From: Lutibacter citreus
Lineage (GTDB): Bacteria > Bacteroidota > Bacteroidia > Flavobacteriales > Flavobacteriaceae
Reading direction: 5' to 3'
Assembly: GCF_003260195.1 (NCBI RefSeq)
Contig: NZ_QEIH01000008.1
Location: 1 to 64,000, forward strand
Length of the DNA stretch: 64,000 nt
The notes below the pieces were generated by a model that saw only the letters and a list, made by a program, of their open reading frames with translations, did not search any database and was not told where the DNA came from. This document shows, one piece after another, positions 36,140-56,080 of this stretch (its first letter is position 1; each line of letters opens with the position of its first letter). The position numbers and the translations under genes were made by a program.

Positions 36140-39100
36140 TTATGATTCTGAGTGTTTTTTTATGTATTCAGTTGGACTAATACCATATTCTTTACTAAAA
36201 CATTTACTAAAATATTTTTGATTATTAAAACCAGTCATAAAAGCAATTTCAGAAATGTAAATTTTATTTTTCTTTAGTAACTGAGCGGCTCTTTTCAATT
36301 TAATTGTTTTTATAAAGTTTACTGGTGTATCATTTAAAATAACTTGAACTTTTCTGTAAAGGTTGGCTCTACTCATACCTATTTCAGATGCTAGAAACTC
36401 AACATTTAAAATGTTATCACTTATATTATCTTCAATTATTTTTATAAGTTTTTTTATGAATTTTTCATCATTTGAATCTATTTGAATATCTGTAGGAGCA
36501 GTGGTTATTAATTTACTGTATTTTTCTTTAAGCTCTTTTCTTGTTTTAATAGTGTTTTTTATTTTCCATTTTAAAAACTCAATGCTAAAAGGCTTTTCTA
36601 TATGATCATTTGCACCAAGACTTAGACATTCAACTTTTGTTTCACTCGAATTTTTAGCGGTTAACATAAAAATTGGAGTATTATTAAATATTGGGTTTTT
36701 CTTAATCTGTTTAAGCATTGAAATACCGTCTTGTACTGGCATTAAAATATCGCTGATAATAAGATCTGGTTTTTCTTTTACAGCTACCTCATAACCTTCT
36801 TTTCCATTTGAAGCTTCAACTACATCATACTCTTTAAACAATTCTTCCATAATCATTTGTCTTAAATCATCATGATCTTCTACTATTAATATTTTTGTTT
36901 TATTGGTTTGTTTCTTTATTTCATTGTTAGGGTAATTTACTAATTGATGGTCGATAACCTGAAATTCTGAAGTCTTAATGAAATTCTTTTTTAAAGGCAT
37001 TCCAGTTTCAATACGTTCATTTTTATGATATCTATTTTTTGATATAGGAATGTAAAAGGTAAATTCTGTATAAACATTTTCTTCGCTCTCTACCATTATT
37101 ACTCCGTGGTGTGTTTCTATTAGTTTATAAACCAATTCCATACCAATACCTGTTCCTGGAATTTGTTTTTTTTGTGGTTTTGTTGCTTGATAGTAGCGGT
37201 TAAATATATTTTTTATATCTTTTTTTGGAATACCAGTACCATTATCTCTAACACTACATTGTAAATACTTTCCATCTATATTATGGTTGCCAATTAATAT
37301 ATTATCAGCTTTTAAAAGGTTTAAGTTTACTGTTATTTTTCCTTTTTCTCCTTTTTCTTTGGTATACTTAAATGAATTAGATAAAAGGTTAAATAATATT
37401 TTTTCTAAAATATCAACATCGTACCAGCCTTTTATTTCTTTTTCTTCAGATATGAAATTATACTTAATATGATAAATTTTAGCAAAATCATTAAAAGCGT
37501 TTTTAATGATATTTATATCTTTAACAATATCATTTTTAGAAATATGTAATTGAAATTTACCTTCATCAAATTTACGAATATCCATAATTTGATTAATAAG
37601 TCTATGCATTCTTAACGTATTGTTATATATGCGCTGCGAAGTAATGGGGTTTAAAGTATGTGTTTTTTCTTTAATTACTTTTTCAATACTTCCAAGTATT
37701 AAAGATAATGGTGTTCTTAATTCATGTGAAATATCAGTAAAAAAGGTCATTTTCATTCTACTATGTTCATTGTCTTTTTCTCTACTAATAGTTTCTTTTA
37801 ACAAGTTTTTCTTTAACAAATACCATCTTCTAATTAAGAACGTACTTACGTATATAATAATTAATGCTAATAAAACATATATTAAAATAGCCCATAAACT
37901 TTTCCAAATAGGAGGATTTATTTTAAAGGTTACTTTAGATGGTACTTCATTCCAAATACCATCACTATTTGAGCTTTTAACCATAAAAGTATAAGTTCCT
38001 GGAGCAAGATCATTATAGTTTGCATTTCTATTAAATGCGTTGGTATAAACCCAATAATTATTTAAACCCTCTAACTTATAAGCATATTCATTTTTATTAG
38101 GAGCAGTAAGGTCTAATGATGAAAAATTTACATATATATTGTTTTGGTTATATGGTAAAACAATCTGTTTATCAGAGTAAATATTTATTTCGTTTACGGG
38201 GCTTAATGCATTATCTGCATTATTTTCATAAACCTCACCAAGTGTAGAAAAGCTAGTAATTGCTGTTGTTGGAACAATATTTTGGGCAATTAATTTTTTA
38301 GGATATACACTATAAAAACCATTAGCGCATCCAAAATATAAGATTTTTTTTTGTGGATTTGAAGCACTGGAATTAAAAACAAATTGACTTTCATTTATTC
38401 CGTCTTCAACACCAAAAGACATAAATCTTTCAGTTTCTAAATTCAACAAAGCAATTCCGTCTCGGGTACTCATCCAAATATTACCATCAATATCTTCCTC
38501 TATTGCCGAAATTATATTTGGATTATTTGTTTTGGTTTCTCTGAAATTTTTAAACTTTTTTATTTTTTTATCATACATATTTAAACCGCCACCCCTTGTG
38601 CCAATCCAAATATTTCCATTTTTATCTTCATAAAGACTTAAAATGGCATTTGAAGTTAATCCATTTGCAAATGTTGGTAAATAGTGGTTTATACTCTCTT
38701 TAACAAGATCCACAATATATAATCCTTCTCCTCTAGTGCCAATCCATAATTTATTGTCTGATGTTAATAAAAGTTTTGAAGTGTGATTATTTTTTAATTC
38801 TTCTCTAACTTGTTTTTTAAAATCTGATAAGGAATTTTCACTATTAATAATATCTAAACCAGAGCCCCATAATGCAACCCAAACTTCATTTTTATTAATT
38901 GCAATTATGTCTTTAATTGGATTATTGTAAGTCTTAATTTTAACCAGATCAAGTTTAGATTTATTGGGCTTGTAATTTTTAGAAGTGTAAATATTAAGAT
39001 TATCAGCAATTAAAAGTTCTGTTTTATCAAAGTTTTTTGTAACAACATTAACTATTTCAAGATTGGTTTCAATCTTCGAGTAGCTTTTGTTTTTTTGATT

Positions 39101-40225
39101 AAAGTTAAATAATCCATTTAGGGCTACTAAAGTATTATTAGAATTTTGATTATTAATACTGTGTACTAAATTATTTTGAGAATAAAATTCATAAAATTCA
39201 AAAAGAGGTGTTCTACCTAAATATTTATTTACTCCTTTAAATGAACCAATCCATAGATTTCCATAAGTATCAAAAATTGTTGAAGTGATATTGTTATTTA
39301 GTAAATTAATATTATTAGATTCTTTTGAATAATAAGAAAAATCATATTGATTATTTTTTCTGTTACCTTTAATTAATCCAGAAGATGTTCCAATCCAAAG
39401 ATCACTGTTTTTAGGGTTAATTGCTATAGTACTTAAAGTTATATTTGAGTCAAGTTTTTTTAATATTTTAGAATAATGTTCTCGCACTTCCAAGCTACTA
39501 TCCGATTTGTTATAGCCTAAAATGTATATGTCGTTTGGAGTTATAGAAATAATTTGATTATTTCCATAAAGTTTCATATTTACTACGTTTTCTTTAAATT
39601 TTGTTGGTGAAATTTCTCCCTTAGCATTTAGTTTGTAGATGCCATCTTCTGTTCCAATCCAATTTCTTCCAAAATTATCTTCAACTAATGAAATTTGCTG
39701 TTTTTCAATTTTATAAATGTCTTTTATTAATTGAGAACTAAATTCAGCGTTTAATTTTATTTTGTTAATGTCTTTTTCTGATTGGATTTTTAACAATCCA
39801 TAATTTTCTAATTTCACCCATATTTTTCCATTTTTACCTTTATTTGTAACAATAGATGTTCTGTTTTTTAAGAAACCTTTAAACTTATTCTCTTTTCTAT
39901 CAAAGCAAATAAGATAACTTTCACTACCTATCCATAAATTATTAAAATCATCTTCAAAAATTGAATTTATATTATTATTGGGAAGGGAATTTGGGTTAAA
40001 AAGATCATACTGATATTTACTTATATTATGCCCGTCATATTTATATAAACCAGAGTTACTACCAATCCATAAAAACCCAAAACTATCTACAAATAAAGTG
40101 TTTACTTTTTTATTGAATAGTACTCCATGAATATCTAACTTATGAAGATTAATTGAATTAGTCTGTGAATAGATTACTGTAATACTTAACAGTAAAATAG
40201 CTCTTACAAAATATTTTTTAAACAT
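36140..40225 (-). CDS. Hybrid two-component system sensor/regulator (HTCS)
   Basis: This 1361-residue single-chain regulator has a signal peptide, two beta-propellers built of WIGT repeats (about residues 40-660; for example FLWIGSNSGLYKYDG and NGNIWIGTRGGGLNMYD), a Y_Y_Y domain (about 690-770), a membrane helix (about 780-805), a histidine kinase with His834 in DISHELRTPLS and ATPase motifs DNGTGIP and GTGIGMEL, a receiver with Asp1159 in IISDILMP, and a C-terminal AraC helix-turn-helix. HTCS proteins sense an oligosaccharide in the periplasm and activate their own locus. It is divergent from sulfatase-GH95-sulfatase-GH30. A 45-bp inverted repeat upstream recurs before susC. Confidence 0.96.
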   Translation of the reverse strand: MFKKYFVRAILLLSITVIYSQTNSINLHKLDIHGVLFNKKVNTLFVDSFGFLWIGSNSGLYKYDGHNISKYQYDLFNPNSLPNNNINSIFEDDFNNLWIGSESYLICFDRKENKFKGFLKNRTSIVTNKGKNGKIWVKLENYGLLKIQSEKDINKIKLNAEFSSQLIKDIYKIEKQQISLVEDNFGRNWIGTEDGIYKLNAKGEISPTKFKENVVNMKLYGNNQIISITPNDIYILGYNKSDSSLEVREHYSKILKKLDSNITLSTIAINPKNSDLWIGTSSGLIKGNRKNNQYDFSYYSKESNNINLLNNNITSTIFDTYGNLWIGSFKGVNKYLGRTPLFEFYEFYSQNNLVHSINNQNSNNTLVALNGLFNFNQKNKSYSKIETNLEIVNVVTKNFDKTELLIADNLNIYTSKNYKPNKSKLDLVKIKTYNNPIKDIIAINKNEVWVALWGSGLDIINSENSLSDFKKQVREELKNNHTSKLLLTSDNKLWIGTRGEGLYIVDLVKESINHYLPTFANGLTSNAILSLYEDKNGNIWIGTRGGGLNMYDKKIKKFKNFRETKTNNPNIISAIEEDIDGNIWMSTRDGIALLNLETERFMSFGVEDGINESQFVFNSSASNPQKKILYFGCANGFYSVYPKKLIAQNIVPTTAITSFSTLGEVYENNADNALSPVNEINIYSDKQIVLPYNQNNIYVNFSSLDLTAPNKNEYAYKLEGLNNYWVYTNAFNRNANYNDLAPGTYTFMVKSSNSDGIWNEVPSKVTFKINPPIWKSLWAILIYVLLALIIIYVSTFLIRRWYLLKKNLLKETISREKDNEHSRMKMTFFTDISHELRTPLSLILGSIEKVIKEKTHTLNPITSQRIYNNTLRMHRLINQIMDIRKFDEGKFQLHISKNDIVKDINIIKNAFNDFAKIYHIKYNFISEEKEIKGWYDVDILEKILFNLLSNSFKYTKEKGEKGKITVNLNLLKADNILIGNHNIDGKYLQCSVRDNGTGIPKKDIKNIFNRYYQATKPQKKQIPGTGIGMELVYKLIETHHGVIMVESEENVYTEFTFYIPISKNRYHKNERIETGMPLKKNFIKTSEFQVIDHQLVNYPNNEIKKQTNKTKILIVEDHDDLRQMIMEELFKEYDVVEASNGKEGYEVAVKEKPDLIISDILMPVQDGISMLKQIKKNPIFNNTPIFMLTAKNSSETKVECLSLGANDHIEKPFSIEFLKWKIKNTIKTRKELKEKYSKLITTAPTDIQIDSNDEKFIKKLIKIIEDNISDNILNVEFLASEIGMSRANLYRKVQVILNDTPVNFIKTIKLKRAAQLLKKNKIYISEIAFMTGFNNQKYFSKCFSKEYGISPTEYIKKHSES

Positions 40226-40378
40226 AATGTACTTTATTAAATTTTAAAAAAATGAAAGAGTAAAAATGTTTCACTTTTTATGGTTATAAGATTTAAGGCA
40301 ATTTACATAATGTTTGTCTAATTTGCTGAGTTTTTAGAGCTATTAGATAGTGAAAATGTCTATAATGATGGTTAATAA

Positions 40379-40423
40379 TGTTGCAATTTATTGTTTTTAC
40401 TACTGTTTCGAGTTTTTGCAACA
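40379..40423. promoter_or_regulatory. Candidate HTCS operator, site 1
   Basis: TGTTGCAA (40379-40386) and TTGCAACA (40416-40423) are perfect inverted 8-bp arms with 29 bp between them. The site lies between the divergent HTCS and sulfatase genes. A second site with the same arms and the same 45-bp total length occurs at 49702-49746 upstream of susC, so the spacing seems to be selected. No T run follows, so it is not a terminator. Confidence 0.65.
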
Positions 40424-40678
40424 TTTATAGGGAGTGTTTGGTAATATCTTTCATAATTACTGTTGTAAATTCGTTTTTGTTAAATAATCTAACAGTACAA
40501 AATAATACGAGTATTTATATTAGGTGTTTCTTAAAAGAGTAAACAGACTAGGAATTACAAAAAAAAATCAGTTAAATACAATGTTTTAATAGAAGCTAGA
40601 ACGTTTTAAAGGTATTTAATTTTGAATGGGTTTTATTTAAAATTTATTAAATAATATAACATTACTTATGACTTATAA

Positions 40679-40951
40679 GGGCATAAAATTAAAAGACATG
40701 AAAGTGTTTTTAATGTTAGAATTACAGATGAAGTATGTAATTTTAAACATCTAGATTTTATTTAGATGGTTGATGAAAAAAAGTTTGAAACAGGATATCA
40801 TCTTATCTAGATTAAAAGATCTCATAGGCTTACAGATATATCAATTTCAAGAGTAAAAGTTAATTCAAAATATGCACTAAAAGGTTTTGTTACAAATAAT
40901 GGTAAAACAATTGAAAATGCTTTTGTAAATAAACATATAACGAAAAAATAG
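40679..40951 (+). pseudogene. Decayed coding remnant of unknown family
   Basis: This frame runs 90 codons with only two internal stops and looks coding: ESVFNVRITDEVCNFKHLDF, stop, MVDEKKFETGYHLI, stop, IKRSHRLTDISISRVKVNSK, then YALKGFVTNNGKTIENAF and VNKHITKK. I cannot assign it. It lies in the 760-bp region between the HTCS and the first sulfatase of the plus-strand operon. The remaining bases there hold the operator candidate and nothing else I can name. Confidence 0.4.
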
Positions 40952-40987
40952 AATCAAATATATAACCAACAAATAATAGAATTACAA

Positions 40988-42580
40988 ATGAGAAAAATTT
41001 CCTTAATACTGTTACTGTTTTTTGTAATTGGAGCTTGTAAATCAAAAAGAATAGCTGAAGTAACTTTGTCTGTAGAAAATGCCACAAATAAAAAACCTAA
41101 TATTATTTTAATTTTTGCAGATGATTTAGGGATTGGATTATTAGGTCAAAATGGGCAAAAAATCATAACAACTCCAAATATTGATAAATTAGCAGAAGAA
41201 GGAATTACTTTTAAAAATACGTATTCAAATATGTTATGTGCTCCATCCAGAGCGTCCTTAATAACGGGACTAAATGATTGCCACGCTAACAAGTTTGATA
41301 TAACTTCAGGTGGAGTATATAAGAAATTAAGTACCGGAAAAGCTACGTTAAGTGAAGTTGAAAAAAGCATTAACAAAGTGCTAAAACCTATTAATGAAGA
41401 TGCCGTTTTTCTAGGTGCAGTTGCTAAAGAAGCTGGTTACAAAACTGCTCAAGTAGGAAAATTAGAGTGGGGGTTTTCAGCAACTGACACACAAATGAAA
41501 CGTCACGGCTGGGATTATTATTTTGGTTATTTAGACCACGAAAGAGCACACGGTTTTTATCCTTCATTCTTGTTTGAAAATGGAAAAAAGGTTGATATTT
41601 CGGGGAATTTACTTGTAAATTCAGGTAAATCTCACGAACCTGAAACAGCCGAAAGTTATAAAGAAAGACATGATATGACTGGCAAAAAGGTCTATTCTCA
41701 AAACTTATTTATGGAAAAAGTTTTAAGCTTTATAACTGAGAATAAAGAAGATCCTTTCTTTTTATACTTTCCCACACAATTACCGCACGGGCCTGTTTCA
41801 ATTCCTAAGGTACATTTAGATTTTGTGAATGATGATAGACTAACCCCAATTGAAAAAGAATATGCTTCAATGGTAAAAATGTTAGATGATAATGTTGGGC
41901 AAATTATGCAGAAATTAAAAGATGAAAATATAGCTGATAATACCATTGTAATATTTATGTCTGATAATGGGCACGAAATTTATTATGGACAAAAAGGAAG
42001 AGTTCAAAAACCATATATGAATATGAAAACTGGAGAACGCTTTGATAATTTAGAACGCAAATATTACAGCGATTTAGGAGGTGATGTTTTTGATGGTAAT
42101 GGAGGTAGAGCAGGTTTAAAACGAAGTAATTTACAAGGAGGAATAAATGTTCCTTTAATTTTTAATTGGCCAAATAAAATAAAGCCGGGCACTACAAGTA
42201 ATAGATTGGTGGCTAATTACGATATACTTTCTACAATTGCAGATATAACAGGATTTAATAAGCCAGTTAAAACTGATGGAATCTCTTTTTATAATGAGCT
42301 TATAGGAAGTGGAGAAACAAAATCACATGATTTTGTTGTTTATTCATCATACACTGGCCCAACATTAATTACAAACGAAGGCTGGAAAATAAGAACATAT
42401 TTAAAAAAAAATGTGTTCGAACTTTATTATTTACCAAATGATTTTAAAGAAGAAAATAATTTATCTGACGAATATCCAGAAAAATTAGAAGAACTTAAAC
42501 AAAAATTATTAATAGCCTGCGAAGGAGATTTTAATAATGGGTTTTATTCTTCAAAAAATAGCGAAATAAAAATAAATTAA
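40988..42580 (+). CDS. Formylglycine-dependent sulfatase (S1 family)
   Basis: This 530-residue protein has a lipoprotein signal (LFFVIGACKSK). It has the metal motif NIILIFADDLGIGLLGQNG, C84-A-P-S-R (formylglycine site, followed by ASLITG), VGKLEWGFSATD, YFPTQLPHGP and FMSDNGHEI. The KLEWG form instead of KWHLG is seen in several algal-polysaccharide sulfatase subfamilies. It begins the plus-strand run controlled, by position, by the HTCS, and lies 22 bp before the GH95 gene. It probably removes a sulfate group that blocks GH95 or GH30. Confidence 0.93.
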   Translation: MRKISLILLLFFVIGACKSKRIAEVTLSVENATNKKPNIILIFADDLGIGLLGQNGQKIITTPNIDKLAEEGITFKNTYSNMLCAPSRASLITGLNDCHANKFDITSGGVYKKLSTGKATLSEVEKSINKVLKPINEDAVFLGAVAKEAGYKTAQVGKLEWGFSATDTQMKRHGWDYYFGYLDHERAHGFYPSFLFENGKKVDISGNLLVNSGKSHEPETAESYKERHDMTGKKVYSQNLFMEKVLSFITENKEDPFFLYFPTQLPHGPVSIPKVHLDFVNDDRLTPIEKEYASMVKMLDDNVGQIMQKLKDENIADNTIVIFMSDNGHEIYYGQKGRVQKPYMNMKTGERFDNLERKYYSDLGGDVFDGNGGRAGLKRSNLQGGINVPLIFNWPNKIKPGTTSNRLVANYDILSTIADITGFNKPVKTDGISFYNELIGSGETKSHDFVVYSSYTGPTLITNEGWKIRTYLKKNVFELYYLPNDFKEENNLSDEYPEKLEELKQKLLIACEGDFNNGFYSSKNSEIKIN

Positions 42581-42602
42581 TTGACCATTTTAACTATACA
42601 AA

Positions 42603-44981
42603 ATGAGAAGAATATATAGTATTACTAAAAAAACTTCATTACTAATTGTTATGGTTTTTATGTTGGTTTCTTGCAATAAAAGTAACTTAGAACATAAATA
42701 TAAAAATCAAGTGTTATGGTATAAACAACCAGCACAAATTTGGAACCAATCCTTACCGTTGGGTAATGGTAGAATTGGTGTAATGGTGTTCGGGAAAACT
42801 TCAAATGAACGTATTCAATTGAATGATGACTCCATGTGGCCAGGCTCAAACGGCTGGGATGAGCCAGATGGAAATAAAGAAGATCTTCAACAAATAAGAG
42901 AACTTCTATTTGCTGGAGATAATAAAAGTGCAGATAAACTTTTTGTTGAAAAATTTTCTCGAAAAGGAGTTGCTAGGTCTCACCAAACTTTAGGTGATTT
43001 ATATATTGATATTAATCACGAAAATATTACAGATTATCATAGAGAATTAAATATTAGTAATGCAACTTCAACGGTTTCCTATAAATCTAATGGTGCATTA
43101 ATAACTGAAAAAGTATTGGTTTCACATCCCGATCAAGCAATTATAGTTGAATTTGAATCTAAAGCAGAAAATGGTTTAAATGGAAAAATTCGTTTAACAA
43201 GACCAGAAGATAATGGTTTTCCAACTGTTGTTTCTAAAACAACTGAAGACAAGCTTCTTTTAATGACAGGAGAAGTTACTCAACGAGCAGCAGAATTCAA
43301 TTCAGAGCCAAATCCAATATTAGAAGGTGTTAAATTTCAAACTTGTTTAAAAATTAAAAATGAAGGCGGGGAAATTATTAAAGGAGATGATTTTTTAGAG
43401 TTGAAAAACGTGAAAAAAGCTACTTTTTATGTAGTTTCTAACTCTTCATTCTATTTTGAAGATTATGTTCAACAAAATAAAATTGAATTAGCTAATGTAA
43501 TTCAAAAAGACTTTAAAACTATTGAAAAAACTCATATTGAAGATTATAAAAGCTTATTTGATAGAGTTAGATTTGAGCTTCCTGACACTGGTTTAGATTC
43601 AATACCTACGGATGAAAGAATTCAAAGAATTAAAAAAGACAATATAGATTTAGGTTTAGAAGCTTTATTATTTCATTATGGCCGTTATTTACTAATTAGT
43701 TCATCTCGTGATGGTACTAACCCGGCTAATCTTCAAGGTTTATGGAATGAGCATATTATAGCTCCTTGGAATGGAGATTATCACTTAAATATAAACCTTC
43801 AAATGAATTATTGGTTAGCTGATGTCACTAATTTGGGAGATTTAAACGCTCCGTTGTTTGATTATTTGGATAAATTGGTTGAAAATGGCAAAACTACGGC
43901 AAGTAAAAATTTTGGATGTCGTGGTTCTTTTTTCCCCCATGCAACTGATATTTGGGCACCAACCTGGTTAAGAGCTCCAACGGCATATTGGGGTTGTTCG
44001 GTTGGAGCTGGAGGTTGGATGATGCAGCACTATTGGCAACATTATGAATTTACAAAAGACACTATCTTTTTAAAAGAACGTGCTTTTCCGGCTATAAAAG
44101 AAGTTGCATTGTTCTATAGTGATTGGCTAATTGAAGATCCAAGAGATGGAAAATTAGTATCTGCTCCTTCTACATCTCCAGAAAATAGATTTTATAATGA
44201 GAAAGGTGAATTAGTAGCTTCTTGTTTGGGAACCGCAATGGATCAACAAATTATAGCAGAAGTATTTACTAATTATATAAAATCTTGTGAAGTTCTAGGA
44301 GTTAATAATGATCTTTTGAAAAAAATAAAGTCTCAATTAAAACAACTACGATTTGGTTTTGTAATTGGTGATGATGGTCGAATTTTAGAATGGGACAGAC
44401 CGTATGAAGAACACCAAAAAGGTCATAGACATATGTCTCATTTATATGGATTCCACCCAGGAACTAGTGTTTCAAGAGATAAAACACCAGAAATATTTAA
44501 TGCGGTTAGAAAAACGTTAGATTATAGATTGGCAAATGGTGGTGCAGGTACAGGTTGGAGCAGAGCTTGGTTAATAAATTGTAGCGCAAGATTGTTAGAT
44601 GGGGAAATGGCACAAAAACACATTCAATTGCTGTTTAAAAAATCTATGTATCCAAACTTGTTTGACGGGCATCCACCATTTCAAATAGATGGTAATTTTG
44701 GTTATACAGCAGGTGTAGCAGAAATGTTGTTGCAATCTCATGAAGAAAATACTATTAGAATATTACCAGCTTTACCAAATACTTGGAAAAAAGGACAGGT
44801 AAAAGGATTAAAAGCAAGAGGAGGCTTAACCGTTGATATTTCTTGGAGCAAAAATAAATTAGAAGAAGTAATAATTACATCAAAATTTGATACTAATCTT
44901 ACTTTAATTTATAAAGATACTAAAACACCTATAAATTTAAAAAAAGGTCAAACATTTGTATACCAACCATTAAAAAATTAA
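42603..44981 (+). CDS. Glycoside hydrolase family 95, probable alpha-L-fucosidase
   Basis: This 792-residue protein has a lipoprotein signal (MVFMLVSCNKS). The N-terminal beta domain has VLWYKQPAQIWNQSLPLGNG and IQLNDDSMWPG, and the catalytic (alpha/alpha)6 barrel has GDYHLNINLQMNYW. Asn396 and Asn398 match the catalytic pair of the Bifidobacterium enzyme AfcA, Glu527 (TSPEN) its acid and Asp696 (FQIDGNFG) its conserved Asp. His394 stands where fucosidases have His; as I recall, the L-galactosidase member has Thr, so L-fucose is favoured. It inverts configuration, typically at alpha-1,2 bonds. It ends 1 bp before the next sulfatase. Confidence 0.93.
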   Translation: MRRIYSITKKTSLLIVMVFMLVSCNKSNLEHKYKNQVLWYKQPAQIWNQSLPLGNGRIGVMVFGKTSNERIQLNDDSMWPGSNGWDEPDGNKEDLQQIRELLFAGDNKSADKLFVEKFSRKGVARSHQTLGDLYIDINHENITDYHRELNISNATSTVSYKSNGALITEKVLVSHPDQAIIVEFESKAENGLNGKIRLTRPEDNGFPTVVSKTTEDKLLLMTGEVTQRAAEFNSEPNPILEGVKFQTCLKIKNEGGEIIKGDDFLELKNVKKATFYVVSNSSFYFEDYVQQNKIELANVIQKDFKTIEKTHIEDYKSLFDRVRFELPDTGLDSIPTDERIQRIKKDNIDLGLEALLFHYGRYLLISSSRDGTNPANLQGLWNEHIIAPWNGDYHLNINLQMNYWLADVTNLGDLNAPLFDYLDKLVENGKTTASKNFGCRGSFFPHATDIWAPTWLRAPTAYWGCSVGAGGWMMQHYWQHYEFTKDTIFLKERAFPAIKEVALFYSDWLIEDPRDGKLVSAPSTSPENRFYNEKGELVASCLGTAMDQQIIAEVFTNYIKSCEVLGVNNDLLKKIKSQLKQLRFGFVIGDDGRILEWDRPYEEHQKGHRHMSHLYGFHPGTSVSRDKTPEIFNAVRKTLDYRLANGGAGTGWSRAWLINCSARLLDGEMAQKHIQLLFKKSMYPNLFDGHPPFQIDGNFGYTAGVAEMLLQSHEENTIRILPALPNTWKKGQVKGLKARGGLTVDISWSKNKLEEVIITSKFDTNLTLIYKDTKTPINLKKGQTFVYQPLKN

Positions 44982-44982
44982 A

Positions 44983-46407
44983 ATGAAAAATATATTTTTA
45001 TTTACAATTGCCTTACTTCTATTTAGTTGTGCTAAATCTAAAAATAAAACAATTAAAAAAAAGAAGCCTAATATTATTTATATAAATGTAGATGATTTAG
45101 GTTGGATGGATACGGAAACCTATGGAAGTTCATTTTATGAAACTCCAAACATTTCTAAACTAGCCAAAATGGGAATGAAATTTACCCAAGGTTATGCTTC
45201 CGCAGCAAATTGTGCCCCAAGTAGAGCTTGTTTAATTAGTGGTCAAAATACACCTAGACACGGAATTTATACAGTTGGTAATTCAGATAGAGGAAATAAA
45301 AAAACACGTAAATTAATACCTGTAGAAAATACTGAAATACTGCACGATAGTGTTTTTACTTTAGCTGAAATGTTTAAAAAAGCAGGCTATGTTACTGGAA
45401 CTTTTGGTAAATGGCATTTAGGAGAAGATCCTACAACACAAGGGTTTGATGTAAATGTAGGTGGTGGTTTAAACGGTAATCCAGGTTCTGAAGGTTATTT
45501 TAGTCCGTATAATATTAAAAATATTGAAGATAATACACCAAATGAAAATTTAACGGATCGGCTAACTTCAGAAGCTATTAAGTTTATTCAAAAAAATAAA
45601 GAAAAACCATTTTTTGTGTACCTTCCTTTTTATGCAGTTCATACACCTTTGTCTACAACATCGTTATTAGAAAAAAAATATACAGATAAGGGAGGGAATC
45701 AACTTCAAAATAAAGCGGTTTATGCTGGAATGATTGAAACAGTTGATACAAATATTGGCCTTCTATTAAATACTTTAGAAAAGCTAAATTTACAAAATAC
45801 CCTTATAGTATTTACTTCAGATAATGGAGGAATTAGAGCCGTTTCGTCTCAAGAACCGTTAAGAGCAGGAAAAGGTTCTTATTATGAAGGAGGTATTAGA
45901 GTTCCGTATTTAATTAGTTGGAAGGGAGTTATTAAGCCAAATACAGTTTCTAACGTTCCAATTACTAACCTTGATTTTTACCCAACTTTTATGGATGTAA
46001 TAGATGTGAAATTACCAAATAAAATTTTGGATGGTAGATCAATTTTACCAGTTTTAAAAGGGAAATCAATAAATGAAAGGGCATTATTTTTTCATTTTCC
46101 AATTTATTTACAGTCCTATGCAGGAAAAAAAGATGATGCTCGTGATCCATTGTTTAGAACCCGTCCTGGTTCTGTTATTATTGACGGTAATTGGAAATTA
46201 CATCAATATTTTGAAGATAATACTTTAGAATTATACAACTTGAACACAGATATAGGAGAACGAACAAATGTTCTTGATGTTAACCCAAAAAAGGCAGCAG
46301 AACTTTTAGAAAAATTGGATAATTGGAGAAAAAACACAAATGCGCCAATACCAACGGAAATAAATTTAGACTATGATTCTAATTTTGTAAGTAAAAAAAA
46401 TAGATGA
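44983..46407 (+). CDS. Formylglycine-dependent sulfatase (S1 family)
   Basis: This 474-residue protein has a lipoprotein signal (LLLFSCAKSK). It has PNIIYINVDDLGWMDTETYG, C77-A-P-S-R followed by ACLISGQNTPRHG, FGKWHLGEDPTTQGFD and FTSDNGGIR. It is placed between GH95 and GH30, with a 1-bp gap before it and a 4-bp ATGA overlap after it, so the three genes form one transcript. It is likely periplasmic and acts on the same oligosaccharides. The position of the sulfate it removes cannot be told from the sequence. Confidence 0.93.
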   Translation: MKNIFLFTIALLLFSCAKSKNKTIKKKKPNIIYINVDDLGWMDTETYGSSFYETPNISKLAKMGMKFTQGYASAANCAPSRACLISGQNTPRHGIYTVGNSDRGNKKTRKLIPVENTEILHDSVFTLAEMFKKAGYVTGTFGKWHLGEDPTTQGFDVNVGGGLNGNPGSEGYFSPYNIKNIEDNTPNENLTDRLTSEAIKFIQKNKEKPFFVYLPFYAVHTPLSTTSLLEKKYTDKGGNQLQNKAVYAGMIETVDTNIGLLLNTLEKLNLQNTLIVFTSDNGGIRAVSSQEPLRAGKGSYYEGGIRVPYLISWKGVIKPNTVSNVPITNLDFYPTFMDVIDVKLPNKILDGRSILPVLKGKSINERALFFHFPIYLQSYAGKKDDARDPLFRTRPGSVIIDGNWKLHQYFEDNTLELYNLNTDIGERTNVLDVNPKKAAELLEKLDNWRKNTNAPIPTEINLDYDSNFVSKKNR

Positions 46408-47942
46408 ATACAAAACTGAAATATATTTTTATAAGTTTCATTTTTCAATTTTCTTTTGGTCAAAAAAAAGAAGCTTTAAAAATAACTGTTTCTCCTAAAG
46501 TTGAGTATCAAACCATTCATAATTTTGGAGCTTCAGATGCTTGGACTACACAATTTGTAGGTAATTGGCCTTTAAAGAAAAAGAGCGCAATAGCCGATTT
46601 ATTATTTGGTTTAGATTTCGACTCTACAAATTCACCAAAGGGAATAGGGTTGTCGGCTTGGCGATTTAATATTGGAGCAGGAAGTTCAGAACAAGCAGAG
46701 CTAAGTGGTATTAAGGATCCTTGGAGAAGAGCGGAAGGTTTTTTACAAAATGATTTGAGTTACAATTGGAAAAGTCAATTGGGTCAACAATGGTTTTTAA
46801 AAGCAGCAAAACAAAGAGGTGTAAAAGATTTTATAGGTTTTGTAAATAGTCCTCCGGTACAATTAACTAAAAATAAAAAAGCGTATCCATCAGATCCAAA
46901 TTCATCAAATCTTTCAAAAGAAAATTATAAATCTTATGCTGTTTTTTTAGCTGAAATTGTTAATAATTTTAAGAATCGTTTAAATATTGAATTGAACTAT
47001 ATAAGTCCTTTTAATGAACCTCAATGGGATTGGGTTAAAGGAAATCAAGAAGGGTCGTCTTGGAACAATGATGAATTGGCAATGGCAACAAAAGTTATTG
47101 ATTCAGTTTTTAATAATGAAAATATTAAAACAAAGTTAGAGCTTACTGAAGCAGGATCTATTGATTACTTAACTTCAGAAAAAAATAAATTAAAAAATAG
47201 AAGTAATCAAGTAGATGCATTTTTTAATTCAGAAAGTAGTAATTATCTGGCTAATTTAAATTCTGTGGCTTTAAAATTTGCAGGACATAGCTATTTTACA
47301 ACTTGGGATATTTCAAAATTAAAAGAGGAACGAGAAAAGATAGCTCAGAAATTAAAACAATATACTAATCTGGAATATTGGATGACAGAATATTGCGTTT
47401 TAGAAAATAATGAGGAAATAAGAGGAAAGGGAAAAGATTTAGGAATGAAAACAGCGCTATATGTTTCAAGGATTATTCATTCAGACTTAACAATTGCAAA
47501 TGCAAGTGCCTGGCATTGGTGGATTGCATTAAGTGCTTATAATTATAAAGATGGATTAATTTATGTAGATAAAAACACCAATAGTGGTGATTTTGTAGAT
47601 TCTAAATTGTTGTGGGCATTGGGTAATTATTCACGGTTTATTAGACCAGAAGCGAAAAGAATAAAAGTTGATTATAAAGAATTAAATTTAATAGATAATT
47701 TAAAAAATGGACTGTTAGTTTCAGCGTATAAAAATATTGATAATAGTGTTGTGGTGGTTATTGTTAATCAACAAGAAGAAGCTGTTTCTATAGATTTATT
47801 AATAGATGATGTTCCTGCCTTTAAAGCTTTAAAAATGTTTACAACAAATAAAACTTTAAACTTAAAAAGTGTTGAAATAAAGAAAAATAAGCAATTTTTG
47901 GTTTCTGGTAAGTCTGTAAATACTTTAATTTATACAAAATAG
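46404..47942 (+). CDS. Glycoside hydrolase family 30 enzyme, possible endo-beta-1,6-galactanase
   Basis: This 512-residue protein has a signal peptide (FISFIFQFSFGQKK). It opens with the GH30 hallmark IHNFGASDAWTTQFVG and LSAWRFNIGAGSSEQ. Glu205 in ISPFNEPQWDW is the acid/base and Glu329 in EYWMTEYCVLEN the nucleophile. AWHWWIALSAYNYKDGL and a C-terminal beta domain complete it. The NFGASDAW form resembles GH30 beta-1,6-galactanases more than glucocerebrosidases, but subfamily assignment is from memory. It would cut a galactan backbone or branch. It is the last gene before IS3-type debris and a terminator. Confidence 0.88.
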   Translation: MNTKLKYIFISFIFQFSFGQKKEALKITVSPKVEYQTIHNFGASDAWTTQFVGNWPLKKKSAIADLLFGLDFDSTNSPKGIGLSAWRFNIGAGSSEQAELSGIKDPWRRAEGFLQNDLSYNWKSQLGQQWFLKAAKQRGVKDFIGFVNSPPVQLTKNKKAYPSDPNSSNLSKENYKSYAVFLAEIVNNFKNRLNIELNYISPFNEPQWDWVKGNQEGSSWNNDELAMATKVIDSVFNNENIKTKLELTEAGSIDYLTSEKNKLKNRSNQVDAFFNSESSNYLANLNSVALKFAGHSYFTTWDISKLKEEREKIAQKLKQYTNLEYWMTEYCVLENNEEIRGKGKDLGMKTALYVSRIIHSDLTIANASAWHWWIALSAYNYKDGLIYVDKNTNSGDFVDSKLLWALGNYSRFIRPEAKRIKVDYKELNLIDNLKNGLLVSAYKNIDNSVVVVIVNQQEEAVSIDLLIDDVPAFKALKMFTTNKTLNLKSVEIKKNKQFLVSGKSVNTLIYTK

Positions 47943-47997
47943 CTTATATTTTCTGTTACATATTATTAATTTACATTTTCAATATTAATCTTTATTT

Positions 47998-48060
47998 TAT
48001 CTTGTATTTCCATAAAAAAAATAGTGTTAAGAGTTACACTATATAAGAATGAGACAAACA
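47998..48060 (-). repeat. End fragment of an IS3-type element (copy A)
   Basis: About 63 bp resemble the sequence at 49440-49500, with most bases equal. On the minus strand it reads from TGTTTGTCTCATTCTTATAT inward to ATGGAAATACAAGAT, that is, the element's end and the first codons (MEIQD) of a transposase subunit gene that then loses homology. It lies right after the GH30 gene. Confidence 0.6.
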
Positions 48061-48063
48061 TTT

Positions 48064-48103
48064 AAAAAAAAGCCTAGCTAATTTTATTTAGTTAGGCTTT
48101 TTT
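48064..48103. terminator. Bidirectional terminator
   Basis: AAAAAGCCTAGCTAA and TTAGTTAGGCTTTTTT form a stem with one G-T pair around a TTTTAT loop, with A and T runs on either side. It can serve the GH30 operon on the plus strand and the hypothetical gene at 48124 on the minus strand. Confidence 0.85.
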
Positions 48104-48123
48104 AATTATTAATAGCTGTATTT

Positions 48124-48606
48124 TTATTTTTTACTTTCTAGCTTGTTATTAATCAATTTGTTCCATTTTTGTATTGATTGTAATTCTCCACTTAATTGAA
48201 AACTCTCTTCTGAATTATAAAATTCAAATAAAATATTGCTTTGATTTTTATTAATAGGAATAAAATCTAAATTTAATTGTTCAATTTCTTTATCATTATA
48301 GGAATTAGAGCTGCTATAATTTGCGAGTTTACATTTTTTAATTGTTGCAAGATCAATAAATTGCTCCTTAATTACATTTTTATTTTTTAATTGAAAGAAA
48401 ACAAAGTTTTTAGTCTCGTCTATACCAATGGCATAATTCCCACAAGTTTCGTATTGTGTTATTTCACTATCTTGTTTTTTTGCCAATTCTTTTAGCGACG
48501 ATATTAGTGCTTTTTCATTTTTTTTTCTACTTCTTGTTGTTATTACAAAGGGTATTGCACATACCGTTGTACTAATAATACCTATTAGGGCTGTTCCTAA
48601 ATCCAT
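48124..48606 (-). CDS. Hypothetical membrane-anchored protein
   Basis: This 160-residue protein is not recognised. An N-terminal membrane helix (LIGIISTTVCAIPFVITTRS) is followed by a basic turn and a soluble cytoplasmic domain with mixed alpha/beta character (YAIGIDETKNFVFFQLKNKN and LQSIQKWNKLINNKL). The layout recalls small Flavobacterial proteins of unknown function near the membrane. It lies in a 1.4-kb island bounded by IS3-type remnants within the sugar cluster and does not look related to polysaccharide use. Confidence 0.65.
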   Translation of the reverse strand: MDLGTALIGIISTTVCAIPFVITTRSRKKNEKALISSLKELAKKQDSEITQYETCGNYAIGIDETKNFVFFQLKNKNVIKEQFIDLATIKKCKLANYSSSNSYNDKEIEQLNLDFIPINKNQSNILFEFYNSEESFQLSGELQSIQKWNKLINNKLESKK

Positions 48607-48698
48607 TTTTTTAATTTTTTAATTTTAATACAATAAGTTTTTTGCGAGGTGGAAAGCCACAACGCATTTAAATAGTTTATTTTAATACCAAAAAAGTA

Positions 48699-49073
48699 TT
48701 ACCAAAAATTATGAAAAGGGAAAATAAGGTCGGATTTTCTATTTCTTATAAGTACATTTTTAAAATAGTTTTTATATTGTCTGTACTTATTTTTAAATAT
48801 TAATTCACTTGAAACTACGGTTTCCCAAAAGCTTTTGTAGTGTAAATTAAAATTAGGTGTTATATATTCTATATTTTCTGAAACTAAATTTTCAGATTGT
48901 TGTGTGTGAACAATTGGAGCTTTATATACGTTTGTATAGTACTCTTTCTGTTTCTTGTTTTGTTCAATTTTTTGAGCACTAGAATAGGCTACTGTTTTTA
49001 CAGGTGCAAAAATGCCAAAACAATAAATTGAAATGAGCAATAATACTTTTAATATTTGATGTAACTGGTTCAC
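48699..49073 (-). CDS. Hypothetical small secreted or membrane-anchored protein
   Basis: This 124-residue protein is not recognised. It has an N-terminal hydrophobic segment (ILKVLLLISIYCFGIFAPV) that may be a signal peptide or anchor, then a polar region and an aromatic and basic C-terminus (FKNKYRQYKNYFKNVLIRN). It shares the island between IS3-type remnants with the gene at 48124 on the same strand, 92 bp apart. Confidence 0.55.
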   Translation of the reverse strand: MNQLHQILKVLLLISIYCFGIFAPVKTVAYSSAQKIEQNKKQKEYYTNVYKAPIVHTQQSENLVSENIEYITPNFNLHYKSFWETVVSSELIFKNKYRQYKNYFKNVLIRNRKSDLIFPFHNFW

Positions 49074-49269
49074 CTTTAATTTAATTTTTTTTATAAAGTA
49101 ATTATTTACTTCTAAAAAAATTGATAATTATTAATCTATAAAATTCGTGTAAAAAAAATCAACAAATAAAAATATTTCAATTTTTTAATTGCTGTTTACT
49201 TTTTTTTCGAGAGCAAAATTAGTTTTTTTATTAATTATTATAATTAAAATTATTATTTATTTTTAGGTT

Positions 49270-49500
49270 CTAATTAATATTTTTTTCAATTAATATAATT
49301 AGTTTAATAATTTCATTATTATCAACTCCATATTTATCTGGCGCTCTTGCTATATTTAATAATCTTTGTTCAATTTCTTCAATTATTTTAAGTTTTAAAC
49401 TTAAACTATAATCTTTTTGTGTTCGCTTTCTTTAATTTTAATCTTGTATTTTCATAAATAAGTTGTGTTAAGTGTTAAACTATATTAAGATTAGACAAAT
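49270..49500 (-). mobile_element. IS3-type element remnant with broken orfA (copy B)
   Basis: On the minus strand, from 49455, the translation is MKIQD, stop, N, stop, RKRTQKDYSLSLKLKIIEEI, the N-terminus of an IS3-family OrfA (compare KRTQRDYSLSFKL). Both stops are TAA where Lys AAA is expected. After about 30 codons the sequence (LLNIARAPDKYGVDNNEIIK) no longer fits OrfA, so an internal deletion or fusion has occurred. The outer part (to 49500) repeats the fragment at 47998-48060. The rest of the 49,074-49,850 interval has only the susC regulatory region. Confidence 0.6.
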
Positions 49501-49701
49501 ACCTTAAAAAAAGAACTCATAATTATATTTAAATAAGATTTTCATGCTTTTCAAATACTAGAGATATACAATATTATAATAAAATAAAAACATTAGTTTT
49601 TATTTTATTGAATGATATGGTAAAAGATTAAAAGTATTTTAATAGTTAAATTAAATTTTCTGTAATTATATAGATTTAGAATGTTTTAATAGATGTAAAA
49701 T

Positions 49702-49746
49702 TGTTGCAGAGGGTTTAATATTTGTTAATTATTGCAATTTGCAACA
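49702..49746. promoter_or_regulatory. Candidate HTCS operator, site 2 (upstream of susC)
   Basis: TGTTGCAG (49702-49709) and TTGCAACA (49739-49746) form inverted arms (7 of 8 complementary) with 29 bp between them, the same geometry as the site beside the HTCS. It ends 43 bp before the candidate susC -7 element, a proper place for an activator. Confidence 0.65.
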
Positions 49747-49788
49747 TAAGTACCCCTTTTTAGAGAACCTTACTTGTTATTTATCTTC

Positions 49789-49796
49789 TAAATTTG
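49789..49796 (+). promoter_or_regulatory. Candidate -7 element of susC
   Basis: TAAATTTG fits TAnnTTTG and lies 54 bp before the susC start. No TTG lies at the consensus -33 distance, which fits a promoter that depends on an activator such as the HTCS. Confidence 0.5.
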
Positions 49797-49850: not shown

Positions 49851-52800
49851 ATGAAATTAAAACTAAGTATTTTATTACTGTTATGTTGTGGTTTTATGTC
49901 CTTAAAGGCACAAACAATCATTTCAGGAACAGTTACAGACAACACAAACCAGCCTTTACCAGGAGTTAACGTTTTGGTGAAAGGAACAAATCGGGGAGCA
50001 AGTTCCGATTTTAACGGGAATTATTCTATTGAAGTTTCTAAAGGAGAAACTTTACAATTTTCATATGTTGGATTTGTTATCCAAGATATTTTAATTGGTA
50101 ATCAAAAGGTATTGAATGTTACCTTAAAAGGAGATTCACAACAATTAGATGAAATTGTGGTAATTGGGTACGGAACTACATCTAAAAAAGATTTGGTTTC
50201 TTCAGTTTCCTCTGTGAAATCAGATGTTTTAGAGAATCAACCAGTTGCAAGATTAGATCAAGCATTGCAAGGTAGAGCAACAGGTGTTTCAGTAACATCT
50301 AATAGTGGTGATCCTGGTTCAGGTTCAACTATTAGAATTAGAGGTACAAGTTCAATAAATGGAAATAACAACCCATTATACGTTGTTGATGGATTTATTG
50401 TTGGAACTGGATTTAACTTAAACACTTTAAACGTAAACGACATTAAATCTGTTGAGGTTTTAAAAGATGCTACTGCATTGGCGATTTATGGAACCAGAGG
50501 TGCTTCAGGGGTTATTTTAGTTACAACTAAAAATGGTACTGAAGTTTCAAAAGGAAAACCAAAAATTAGTTTAAACCATTATAACAGTATTCAAGAAGTA
50601 GCTAATGAAATTGATATTGTAAACGGACAAGATTATGTAAATTATATTAATGAAGCAGGTCAATTTAATCCAAATTTAAATAACGGATTTGGGGGTACAG
50701 ATGCTAGTTTACCATTATTGTTTGATGAGCCAGGAGTTGTTGAAACAACTGATTGGCTAGATCTTGTTTCTCAAACGGGTCATGTAATGAATACTGATTT
50801 ATCAGTAATGGGTAATTCAGAAAATTCAAATTATTATATTTCTTTAAATCATTTTGATCAAGAAGGGATTTTAAAAGGTTCTGGTTTAGAAAGAGTTACT
50901 TTTAGAACTAATATTGATGTAAAACTTTCTGACAAGTTTAAAATGGGAATTCGGTTAAATGCTACTCATTATAAAAAAGAGAATAATAAAGTAAATTATT
51001 CAAATATTGTTGATCAAGTTTTACCAATAAGAACTGTGTATGATGCAAATGGGAATTATACAGGAATTAATCCAATAAGTTCAGCAACTGAGCGAAATCC
51101 TGAAGCGGATATTCAATTAAGAGTTGACCATGATTTAATAACAAAACTTGTTTCTAATGCATACTTTGAGTATGAGTTATTTGAAAACTTTAAATTAAAA
51201 TCAACTATTGGTGCTGAATTAACACATGCTAAATACAACGATTATCTTCCTGGAACTTTACCAGATAGAGTAATTAGTAAAGGTGGTACAGGATATGGTA
51301 AAGTAGCAACAAACTTTGCTAAAAGTGTTTTGAACGAAAATACATTTACTTATGATCTAGATTTAGATGATCATTCTGTTAAATTATTAGGAGGATTTAC
51401 TTGGCAAAAAGACAATAATGAAAGTACAGTTTCAGAAGCTGATGGTTTCCCTAATGATGCGGTATCATTTAATAACCTGTCTTTAGGAGATGCAGAACTT
51501 TATTTTGCTAATTCAGGATATAGCCAAAGAACTTTAACTTCATTTTTAAGTAGGGTAAATTATGGTTATAAAAGTAAATATCTTTTAACATTAGTTGGTA
51601 GATATGATGGTTCTTCAGTTTTTGAAGAAGGAAATAAATATGCATTTTTCCCTTCAGTAGGTGCTGCTTGGAATGTTACTGAAGAAAGTTTTATGGAAAA
51701 TGTTGATGTTATTAATAAATTAAAAGTTAGAGGTAGTTACGGTATTGTTGGAGAACAAGGTGTAAACCCTTATAACTCTATTGCAACATACAATAACACA
51801 ATAAATATTTTTAATGATAATGTTGTAAATGCGGTTCAATTAGGATCTGTACCAAGTGATGGATTAAAGTGGGAAACTACTAAACAGTTAGACCTTGGTT
51901 TTGAAGTAAGTCTTTTAGATGATAGAATTTCATTTGAAGCAGATTATTATAACAAAACTACAGAAGATTTATTATTAGCTAAAGCTTTATCAGCTCAAGC
52001 GGGTGGTGGAACTCAATTACAAAATGTAGGTTCTGTAAGAAATAGTGGATTTGAGTTTTCATTAAACACTATTAATATTGAGAAAAAAGATTTTTCGTGG
52101 AATTCAACATTAACAATTTCAACAAATAAAAGTGAAGTTATAGAATTAGATGGTAGAGATTATATTGATTTGCAATCTACGGGTAATCAAGGTGGTACTT
52201 CAGCAAGACTGATTGTTGGTGAATCTATGCCTGTATTTGTTGGTCTTAATTATTTAGGTACCTATAAAACGGCAGAAGAAATAACTGCAGATGGAAGAGA
52301 AGGAATGTCATTTATTGGTGGTCCAAGATTTGAAAATTTAGATGATAACCCTACTTGGAATGATGAAGACGCAACTATAATTGGTAGCCCTGAGCCAGAT
52401 TTTTATGGAGGTTTTAGAAATACATTTACATATAAAGGACTTTCCTTAGATGTCTTTTTTCAAGGTCAATATGGAAGTGATATATTTAATATAAGAACTC
52501 AAACTTCATATTACGGTAGAGGTGAAAAGAATTTAGATTCAAGAGTCTTAGATCGTTGGCAAGAAGGAGTTAATGAAAGTTCAGATGTTCCAAGAGCTGG
52601 AGCTTCTACAAGTTTATTTAATCCAAATAGTACTGTTAATATTGAAGATGGTTCATTTTTAAGATTAAAAACTACTACTTTAAATTATAATCTTCCATTG
52701 GAGAAATTAGGATGGAATGATACCTTCAGTGCATTTAATGTTTATGTTACAGGTTCTAATTTATTTTTAATCTCTAAGTTTAAATTAGGAGATCCAGAAA

Positions 52801-52910
52801 CAAATAATTTTAGCTCAGGTAGTGGTTTTGGATCAGTATCTCAAGGTTTTGCTGGTGGAACTTACCCGTATGCAAAGTCTGTTACATTAGGATTAAAAAT
52901 GGAATTTTAA
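49851..52910 (+). CDS. susC: SusC/RagA family TonB-linked outer membrane protein
   Basis: This 1019-residue protein has a signal peptide (cleavage near SLKAQTIIS). A CarboxypepD_reg-like domain (about residues 24-100: SGTVTDNTNQPLPGVNVLVK) precedes the TonB box and plug (LDEIVVIGYGTTSKKDLVSS; then RIRGTSSINGNNNPLYVVDG), and the remainder is a 22-strand barrel typical of the family. It imports oligosaccharides across the outer membrane using TonB energy. With the SusD protein 12 bp downstream it forms the uptake complex of this locus. It has its own upstream regulatory region with a putative HTCS site. Confidence 0.96.
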   Translation: MKLKLSILLLLCCGFMSLKAQTIISGTVTDNTNQPLPGVNVLVKGTNRGASSDFNGNYSIEVSKGETLQFSYVGFVIQDILIGNQKVLNVTLKGDSQQLDEIVVIGYGTTSKKDLVSSVSSVKSDVLENQPVARLDQALQGRATGVSVTSNSGDPGSGSTIRIRGTSSINGNNNPLYVVDGFIVGTGFNLNTLNVNDIKSVEVLKDATALAIYGTRGASGVILVTTKNGTEVSKGKPKISLNHYNSIQEVANEIDIVNGQDYVNYINEAGQFNPNLNNGFGGTDASLPLLFDEPGVVETTDWLDLVSQTGHVMNTDLSVMGNSENSNYYISLNHFDQEGILKGSGLERVTFRTNIDVKLSDKFKMGIRLNATHYKKENNKVNYSNIVDQVLPIRTVYDANGNYTGINPISSATERNPEADIQLRVDHDLITKLVSNAYFEYELFENFKLKSTIGAELTHAKYNDYLPGTLPDRVISKGGTGYGKVATNFAKSVLNENTFTYDLDLDDHSVKLLGGFTWQKDNNESTVSEADGFPNDAVSFNNLSLGDAELYFANSGYSQRTLTSFLSRVNYGYKSKYLLTLVGRYDGSSVFEEGNKYAFFPSVGAAWNVTEESFMENVDVINKLKVRGSYGIVGEQGVNPYNSIATYNNTINIFNDNVVNAVQLGSVPSDGLKWETTKQLDLGFEVSLLDDRISFEADYYNKTTEDLLLAKALSAQAGGGTQLQNVGSVRNSGFEFSLNTINIEKKDFSWNSTLTISTNKSEVIELDGRDYIDLQSTGNQGGTSARLIVGESMPVFVGLNYLGTYKTAEEITADGREGMSFIGGPRFENLDDNPTWNDEDATIIGSPEPDFYGGFRNTFTYKGLSLDVFFQGQYGSDIFNIRTQTSYYGRGEKNLDSRVLDRWQEGVNESSDVPRAGASTSLFNPNSTVNIEDGSFLRLKTTTLNYNLPLEKLGWNDTFSAFNVYVTGSNLFLISKFKLGDPETNNFSSGSGFGSVSQGFAGGTYPYAKSVTLGLKMEF

Positions 52911-52922
52911 AAAAATAATAAA

Positions 52923-54500: not shown

Positions 54501-54514
54501 AATACCAATAATTT

Positions 54515-54554
54515 AAAGTCAGGGTGTAAATGTTAATTGCACTCTGGCTTTTTT
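54515..54554 (+). terminator. Terminator after susD
   Basis: AAAGTCAGGGTG and CACTCTGGCTTT pair over 12 bp with two G-T pairs, followed by TTT. It lies 14 bp after susD and 15 bp before the next sulfatase gene; it may act as partial attenuator. Confidence 0.8.
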
Positions 54555-54568
54555 AAAATATTCTATTT

Positions 54569-56047: not shown

Positions 56048-56080
56048 TAAAAGAATATTGTGATTATAAATTTAATATCA

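Follow-up and report, generated by a model that had tools for sequence, protein, structure and literature searches.

In Bacteroides, the motifs of hybrid two-component system regulators (HTCS) are direct repeats with a mean distance of 21 bp, located upstream of target operons, according to the accessible text of Ravcheev et al. 2013 (PMC3878776), and this published motif set, for a major class of regulators of polysaccharide utilization loci (PULs), is a Bacteroides one. We analyzed a 64,000-nucleotide stretch of Lutibacter citreus DNA (contig NZ_QEIH01000008.1, positions 1 to 64,000; the window), where two 45-bp inverted repeats are found at a PUL, one between the HTCS gene and a divergent sulfatase gene (site 1) and the other upstream of susC (site 2). 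We suggest that the arms of these repeats are probably the inner half-sites of two opposed sites for the neighboring HTCS, so that an HTCS-activated promoter module would stand head-to-head with an HTCS-facing tandem. The locus is like the Bacteroides cases in having an AraC-type HTCS beside susC/susD and direct-repeat half-sites (21 bp there, 22 bp here on the HTCS-facing side), and unlike those accessible in PMC3878776 in that a single divergent intergenic region holds two opposed sites and that the promoter box TAnnTTTG follows at a rigid distance of 48/49 bp. This likeness concerns the layout and the period.

The gene order at Escherichia coli araC-araBAD is likewise divergent, with a regulator site that overlaps the -35 element. 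The L. citreus regulator is a membrane hybrid kinase, unlike the soluble sugar-binding protein of E. coli. Shared features, as far as the accessible part of PMC4760080 describes them, are the AraC-family binding domain and two pairs of sites, a proximal one located at the promoter and an intermediate one upstream of it. The third system for comparison is the Bacteroidetes sigma-A promoter, with a -7 box TAnnTTTG that lies at -12 to -5 in a flavobacterium (accessible text of PMC9723704); the same box is found here, and its position was used for the predicted starts. Unlike the plain sigma-A promoters of that text, the L. citreus promoters carry two further elements at fixed distance upstream, over the -33 region: the conserved arm and the TGA(G/T)A box. 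No description of a back-to-back HTCS operator was found in the open-access text searched on HTCS motifs and PUL regulation, a search that excluded figures, supplements, subscription papers and RegPrecise, and the accessible parts of PMC12125979, PMC5061871 and PMC10994844 gave no useful HTCS site structure.

Results

Inverted repeats in the window

Both 45-mers were confirmed by reading the sequence at the coordinates given in the preliminary description of this DNA:

40379..40423, no strand: site 1, TGTTGCAA-N29-TTGCAACA, at the centre of the HTCS/sulfatase intergenic control region, conserved in orthologues
49702..49746, no strand: site 2, TGTTGCAG-N29-TTGCAACA, upstream of susC, with corresponding sites in two other genomes, G025 and G026

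Site 1 is located between the HTCS start (40225, minus strand) and the sulfatase start (40988, plus strand), while site 2, where the left arm is TGTTGCAG and 7 of 8 arm bases agree, ends 104 bp upstream of the susC start at 49851. The pattern TGTTGCA-N31-TGCAACA is matched at exactly two places in the window, and 100 dinucleotide shuffles gave no match at all; in the 5.1-Mb genome it again has exactly two, both at this locus (the reversed control pattern has none), so that the many unrelated copies with the same spacing that would have spoken against an operator do not exist. Three of 38 genomes of the genus, the own genome included, carry the pattern, twice in each. As had been noticed before, the arm words otherwise occur only in coding DNA: TTGCAACA is present four times in the window, the two intergenic copies being those of the two sites, and TGTTGCAA six times, once intergenic. 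The inverted-repeat observation is correct and far above chance.

Inverted repeats near Bacteroides promoters can mark invertible DNA (accessible text of PMC10994844). The probability that the repeats here are the ends of an invertible promoter, an RNA hairpin or a chance occurrence is nevertheless close to nil: none were expected and two were found, the arms are only 7-8 bp long, and the position and the partners of the arms, conserved across genera, contradict it.

Orthologous control regions

The first genome scan gave 23 loci, of which 17 close HTCS relatives (L007-L023; 50-66% identity to the HTCS in the best segment) were used and six more distant ones set aside. Among 397 family genomes we detected 16 full-length orthologues (own included), the others at 48-71% identity, separated by a clear gap from partial matches at 34-39%. 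The exact arm pair with a spacer of 29-35 bp stands within 300 bp upstream of the HTCS start in 11 of the 16. This same pattern, loose in its spacer, is present in 98 of the 397 genomes; judged by eye, its occurrences outside HTCS loci, among the matches listed, appear to be mostly chance, and its reversed control, made without dinucleotide matching, was much rarer.

After removal of six near-duplicates from 35 upstream regions, 29 non-redundant regions remained. An arm was accepted when it matched TGCAACAT with at most one mismatch, R1 being the HTCS-facing and L1 the outward arm. R1 was accepted in 25 regions, L1 in 23 and both in 22, where the spacer is 30 (three regions), 31 (nine), 32 (three), 33 (six) or 34 bp (one). 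The exact spacing shared by the two window sites is not kept in relatives, with spacers of 30-34 bp. The pair is retained in 22/29 orthologous regions, which speaks for an operator, and absent from 7/29. R1 and L1 positions were picked by hand from the list of arm words, leaving other arm-like words unused; these include L013's exact inverted pair at spacer 13 and, at the +22 place in L062, whose HTCS-facing arm was not accepted, a copy with one mismatch. Since related genomes are not independent samples, the counts somewhat overstate the evidence.

Regulator and target share the intergenic region, as in araC, in 26/29 regions, where the gene divergent from the HTCS gene is a sulfatase (14), susC (11) or GH2, a glycoside hydrolase (GH) gene (1); site 2 has no such arrangement. 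The divergent gene is of another kind in L018, L020 and L075. The L018 region has susC and the HTCS gene separated by a LamG-type gene that is divergent from susC, with a variant operator before susC.

Two further features of these regions were observed. L016, L017 and L067, with 33-bp spacers, have a common conserved middle between the arms, about CTTGTTTTAAAGGCTTAA. The Polaribacter regions L009, L013 and L015, with a divergent sulfatase gene, retain the HTCS-facing arm and a copy 22-23 bp on, and L013 has the spacer-13 pair instead of the usual one.

Probable HTCS-facing half-sites

The side of the control region that faces the HTCS gene carries a direct repeat of half-sites:

40370..40385, minus strand: HTCS-facing half-site R1, TGCAACATTATTAACC, accepted in 25/29 regions, conserved as TGCAACATt...AC.C
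40356..40363, minus strand: second HTCS-facing half-site R2, ATAGACAT, 22 bp from R1, at the +22 offset peak (z 6.7)

With up to two mismatches in eight allowed, a second copy stands at +22 in 14 of 25 regions, whereas other offsets average 0.11 regions and never reach more than 1; the direct repeat of about 21 bp known from Bacteroides is therefore present here at offset 22. The z of 6.7 is that of a position weight matrix, and a matrix built on the opposite arm has its peak at this offset too, with z 6.3. The bases A, C, A, T at +26..+29 are conserved in 24, 24, 23 and 22 of the 25 regions. Judged by eye, the inner of the two L062 copies reads TGAGACAT, and the outer differs at one base; TGAGACAT, two mismatches from TGCAACAT, takes the place of R1 in L062 and of the +21 box in L071 (also by eye). 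Because of the L062 copies, inner and outer tandem positions may be exchangeable.

Predicted target-facing promoter module

On the opposite side, each site of the window faces a predicted target operon:

40417..40424, plus strand: sulfatase-facing half-site L1, TGCAACAT, arm of site 1
40439..40446, plus strand: +22 box, TGGTAATA, a weak match to TGA(G/T)AATT with a putative role
40466..40473, plus strand: predicted -7 box, TAAATTCG, which differs from TAnnTTTG at one base and lies 49 bp from the arm, with the start predicted at about 40478
49740..49756, plus strand: susC-facing half-site, TGCAACATAAGTACCCC, the genome's only exact match to TGCAACATNNNNACCCC
49762..49769, plus strand: +22 box, AGAGAACC, at about -39 to -32, the same in G025 and G026 (L090, L091)
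49789..49796, plus strand: predicted -7 box, TAAATTTG, at a distance of 49 bp from the arm, with the start predicted at about 49801
49701..49708, minus strand: inverted half-site of site 2, facing outward, where no divergent PUL gene follows

All 23 regions that have the outward arm carry TAnnTTTG, with no more than one mismatch, at +49 (16 regions) or +48 (7) from it; the highest count for two neighboring offsets in any of 2000 mononucleotide shuffles was 7. The proximal site overlaps the -33 region at this fixed distance: the arm falls near -61 and the second box spans about -39 to -32, because the -7 box lies at -12 to -5 (PMC9723704). GAGA is present at +22/23 in 14 of the 23 regions and aligns better when the regions are anchored on the -7 box. 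The module facing the targets would consist of TGCAACAT, followed at +21/22 by a box of the TGA(G/T)A type and at +48/49 by TAnnTTTG, placing the putative site at about -61 to -32, over the -33 region in the class-II style of AraC-family activators, which occupy the same place, overlapping the -35/-33 region.

Each of five susC promoters without a divergent HTCS gene (window, L090, L092, L094, L095) has the -7 box at +49. These five represent one promoter for each near-identical set, with L096, L097 and L098 (more distant SusC) omitted, and the L095 arm, which has two mismatches, was placed by eye. A SusC match at 1e-200 was absent in 10 of the 19 orthologue-bearing genomes searched. The box at +22 of the susC promoter (AGAGAACC) is not a clear copy of the arm, and the TGAGA box as a plain copy of TGCAACAT found no statistical support, being kept as a suggestion. 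In G025 no minus-strand open reading frame (ORF) of at least 30 aa stands behind the inverted half-site that corresponds to that of site 2. The G025 arm that corresponds to the sulfatase-facing arm of site 1 is about 160 bp upstream of a GH2 gene.

Paralogues and the HTCS

For comparison, 40 regions upstream of paralogous HTCS genes were collected (36 of 58 listed hits and four paralogues of the own genome), one of which, L183, was anchored on an internal ATG, so that its 450 bp are coding. Neither 7-mer arm word was found in any of the 40, against an HTCS-facing arm in 25/29 orthologous regions, which argues that the arm is conserved with the orthologous regulator and not with its paralogues. 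The DNA-binding domains are 70-85% identical in 32 orthologue sequences (five genomes counted twice) and 34-46% in 20 paralogues. HTCS is the likely binder, since the sites follow the orthologues, the binding domains divide in the same way and the tandem period is typical of HTCS. The preliminary description had named the arms an HTCS operator, and in this respect it is very probably right: the arms track the orthologue group and are missing from all 40 paralogous regions.

Another regulator that binds the arm words could produce the same pattern by co-inheritance with the locus, and HTCS binding is itself a prediction; with an arm that follows the HTCS orthologues and not the paralogues, and a tandem period that is the one of HTCS motifs, we regard this as most improbable.

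The word ACATATG, picked by eye, is present in 10/40 paralogue regions, in eight of them with a direct copy at 21 bp. The tandem therefore looks general and the inverted arm special to this HTCS group, as 21-bp direct repeats occur in paralogue regions and the arm words in none. The eight regions with the ACATATG repeat are L152, L156, L158, L160, L166, L171, L175 and L181. A back-to-back design general to other HTCS was considered and rejected, as the 40 regions have no excess of inverted pairs at spacers of 26-38 bp; the word-free repeat count is 3-7 regions per spacer in this range, with a mean over all spacers of 6.3.

The receiver domain of the HTCS (36140-40225) has NNTP at the place where most HTCS have S/CHIP. 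Among the same orthologue sequences, SHIP is found in 2 of 32 (five genomes counted twice), and S/CHIP in 19 of the 20 paralogues. This receiver motif has been tied to the inhibition of DNA binding (accessible text of PMC11253607).

Regulon search

The pattern TGCAACAT-N40/41-TAnnTTTR was searched in 20 orthologue-bearing genomes of our choice and gave 59 matches, compared with 9 for a reversed control without dinucleotide matching. Known HTCS-adjacent sites account for 12 of the 59; counted by eye, 24 of the other 47 have TGA(G/T)A at +22, and much of the remainder has the look of chance matches. From 30 loci fetched, 13 are stand-alone promoters with a TGAnA box, 12 of which were prepared and 10 scanned with Pfam, the downstream proteins being four sulfatases, three GH2, two with domains of a carbohydrate-binding type (one F5/8 type C, one LamG/FIVAR) and one with no match.

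The complete 57-bp module has four matches in 299 family genomes, in four genomes that all carry an HTCS orthologue; three of the four had helped to define the pattern and only the fourth is new. In the window, with up to three mismatches, it matches only at 40417-40473 and 49740-49796, with 0.02 matches expected. The new match of the four is a third module site in the own genome (L222, G000:C35:13187-13243), 84 bp before a gene that, judged from its translation, is sulfatase-like.

Of the 13 stand-alone promoters, 11 have 3-4 mismatches in their closest inverted arm and the other two have two. The inverted arm is dispensable for the promoter module as such, because 11 of the 13 have no recognizable one. 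These promoters bear on the reading of the 45-bp repeat as one palindromic operator, with a symmetric HTCS dimer or tetramer bridging both arms. Such an operator would account for the retention of both arms in site 2 and its G025 and G026 counterparts, which have no divergent PUL gene, and for the inverted arm of the third own-genome site (spacer 30, one mismatch in eight). We reject it as very unlikely, because the spacing varies over 30-34 bp, where an invariant one would be called for, and because each arm has a fixed-distance partner of its own, at 22 bp on one side and at 48/49 bp (the -7 box) on the other; the stand-alone promoters likewise speak against it.

Genes of the locus

The cognate regulator, a hybrid two-component protein with an AraC-type HTH, is encoded in the same PUL as susC/susD:

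36140..40225, minus strand: HTCS gene, with two-component propeller repeats (Reg_prop), Y_Y_Y, HisKA, HATPase_c, Response_reg and AraC-type HTH_18
40988..47942, plus strand: predicted target operon 1 (sulfatase, GH95, sulfatase, GH30), proposed from gene spacing
49851..57409, plus strand: predicted target operon 2 (SusC, SusD, sulfatase, weak-GH59 protein), proposed from gene spacing

The GH59 match in operon 2 is weak, below Pfam's cut-off. Beside the 3' end of the HTCS gene, a short ORF at 35666-36028 has a DDE_Tnp_IS240 transposase domain and is likely a fragment. The stretch of about 510 nt from the predicted start to the sulfatase gene (40478-40987) looks rearranged or decayed. Two small minus-strand ORFs stand between GH30 and susC (48124-49073), the first of them without a Pfam match.

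Discussion

The arms, spacing, 22-bp repeat, -7 box distance, association with the HTCS group and kinds of downstream genes are seen in the sequence; HTCS is the predicted binder and putative activator, with a candidate autoregulatory site facing its own gene. Site 1 would be a promoter module that faces the sulfatase/GH95/sulfatase/GH30 operon, head-to-head with the HTCS-facing tandem; at site 2 this module would face susC/susD, and the inverted arm is still there. After sensing of the sugar, the phosphorylated HTCS would bind as a dimer to the target-facing site and recruit RNA polymerase to two operons, that of susC and that of the sulfatase and GH genes. The tandem on the HTCS side, a pair of half-sites with a 22-bp period, probably serves the control of the HTCS gene itself or aids the binding of the first dimer.

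The preliminary description went further than this, taking the 45-bp inverted repeat with its exact spacing as the operator itself. That part is not supported: the spacers vary by 4 bp, the arms appear to be the inner half-sites of a pair of opposed sites that together extend over about 100 bp, and no recognizable inverted arm is found at 11 of the 13 stand-alone regulon promoters. Of the proposed dimer or pair of dimers, the pair fits better than a single dimer across the arms.

Several results weigh against the proposed back-to-back sites. More distant SusC genes (L096 and L097, 43-44% identity, in orthologue-bearing genomes) have no arm pair upstream. L018, L020 and L075 lack any accepted arm at the HTCS gene, and the Polaribacter regions L009, L013 and L015 lack the outward arm at the usual spacing. 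Statistically the TGA(G/T)A box is not a copy of TGCAACAT, and no +22 peak was detected on the target-facing side. Site 1 is the weaker match to the module, with a mismatch in the -7 box and a leader of about 510 nt to the sulfatase gene, and the inverted arm retained at site 2 has no divergent PUL gene as a target. The exact module is present in only 4 of the 12 orthologue-bearing genomes among the 299. Finally, no fixed-distance -7 box or promoter box was found on the HTCS side of the orthologous regions, where it was sought, and the autoregulatory role, suggested by position, is a weak point.

The araC layout suggests a second mode of action, in which the HTCS without inducer would bridge the opposed inner half-sites and repress both genes, and on phosphorylation would move to the tandem and promoter-proximal arrangement and activate. 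The layout is similar to the araO1 and araI1-araI2 pairs in the accessible text of PMC4760080, and the unphosphorylated kinase may sit on the inner half-sites, because the clade has mostly lost the S/CHIP motif linked to the inhibition of DNA binding; HTCS of non-consensus type were also suggested as possible repressors (accessible text of PMC11253607). Against this, the arms stand at varying distances that are all far shorter than the araI1-araO2 loop, and 11 of the 13 stand-alone promoters have no recognizable distal arm. That a membrane-bound, unphosphorylated HTCS represses its own gene and the PUL in the AraC style, and is directed by the sugar to the promoter-proximal site, appears doubtful to us, although less so than the palindrome. 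If true, the operator would be one compact two-way switch, of which PUL rearrangements carried copies out of the HTCS/susC intergenic region to separate promoters.

Under the preferred reading of two opposed HTCS sites, the two window copies may descend from one split region, because the HTCS gene and susC are divergent in 11 of the 29 regions; the split would date to the insertion of an enzyme operon between HTCS and susC. The back-to-back control region is common to related marine bacteria and likely switches on sugar-digestion genes.

The word, the half-site period and the rigid distance to the -7 box are defined here for a flavobacterial HTCS group of marine genera. The back-to-back design raises HTCS self-regulation, and repression as well as activation, as testable possibilities. 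The 57-bp pattern provides further candidate promoters for sulfatases and GH2 enzymes, one of them elsewhere in the L. citreus genome, and with it the enzymes that act jointly on one sulfated polysaccharide may be predictable from sequence.

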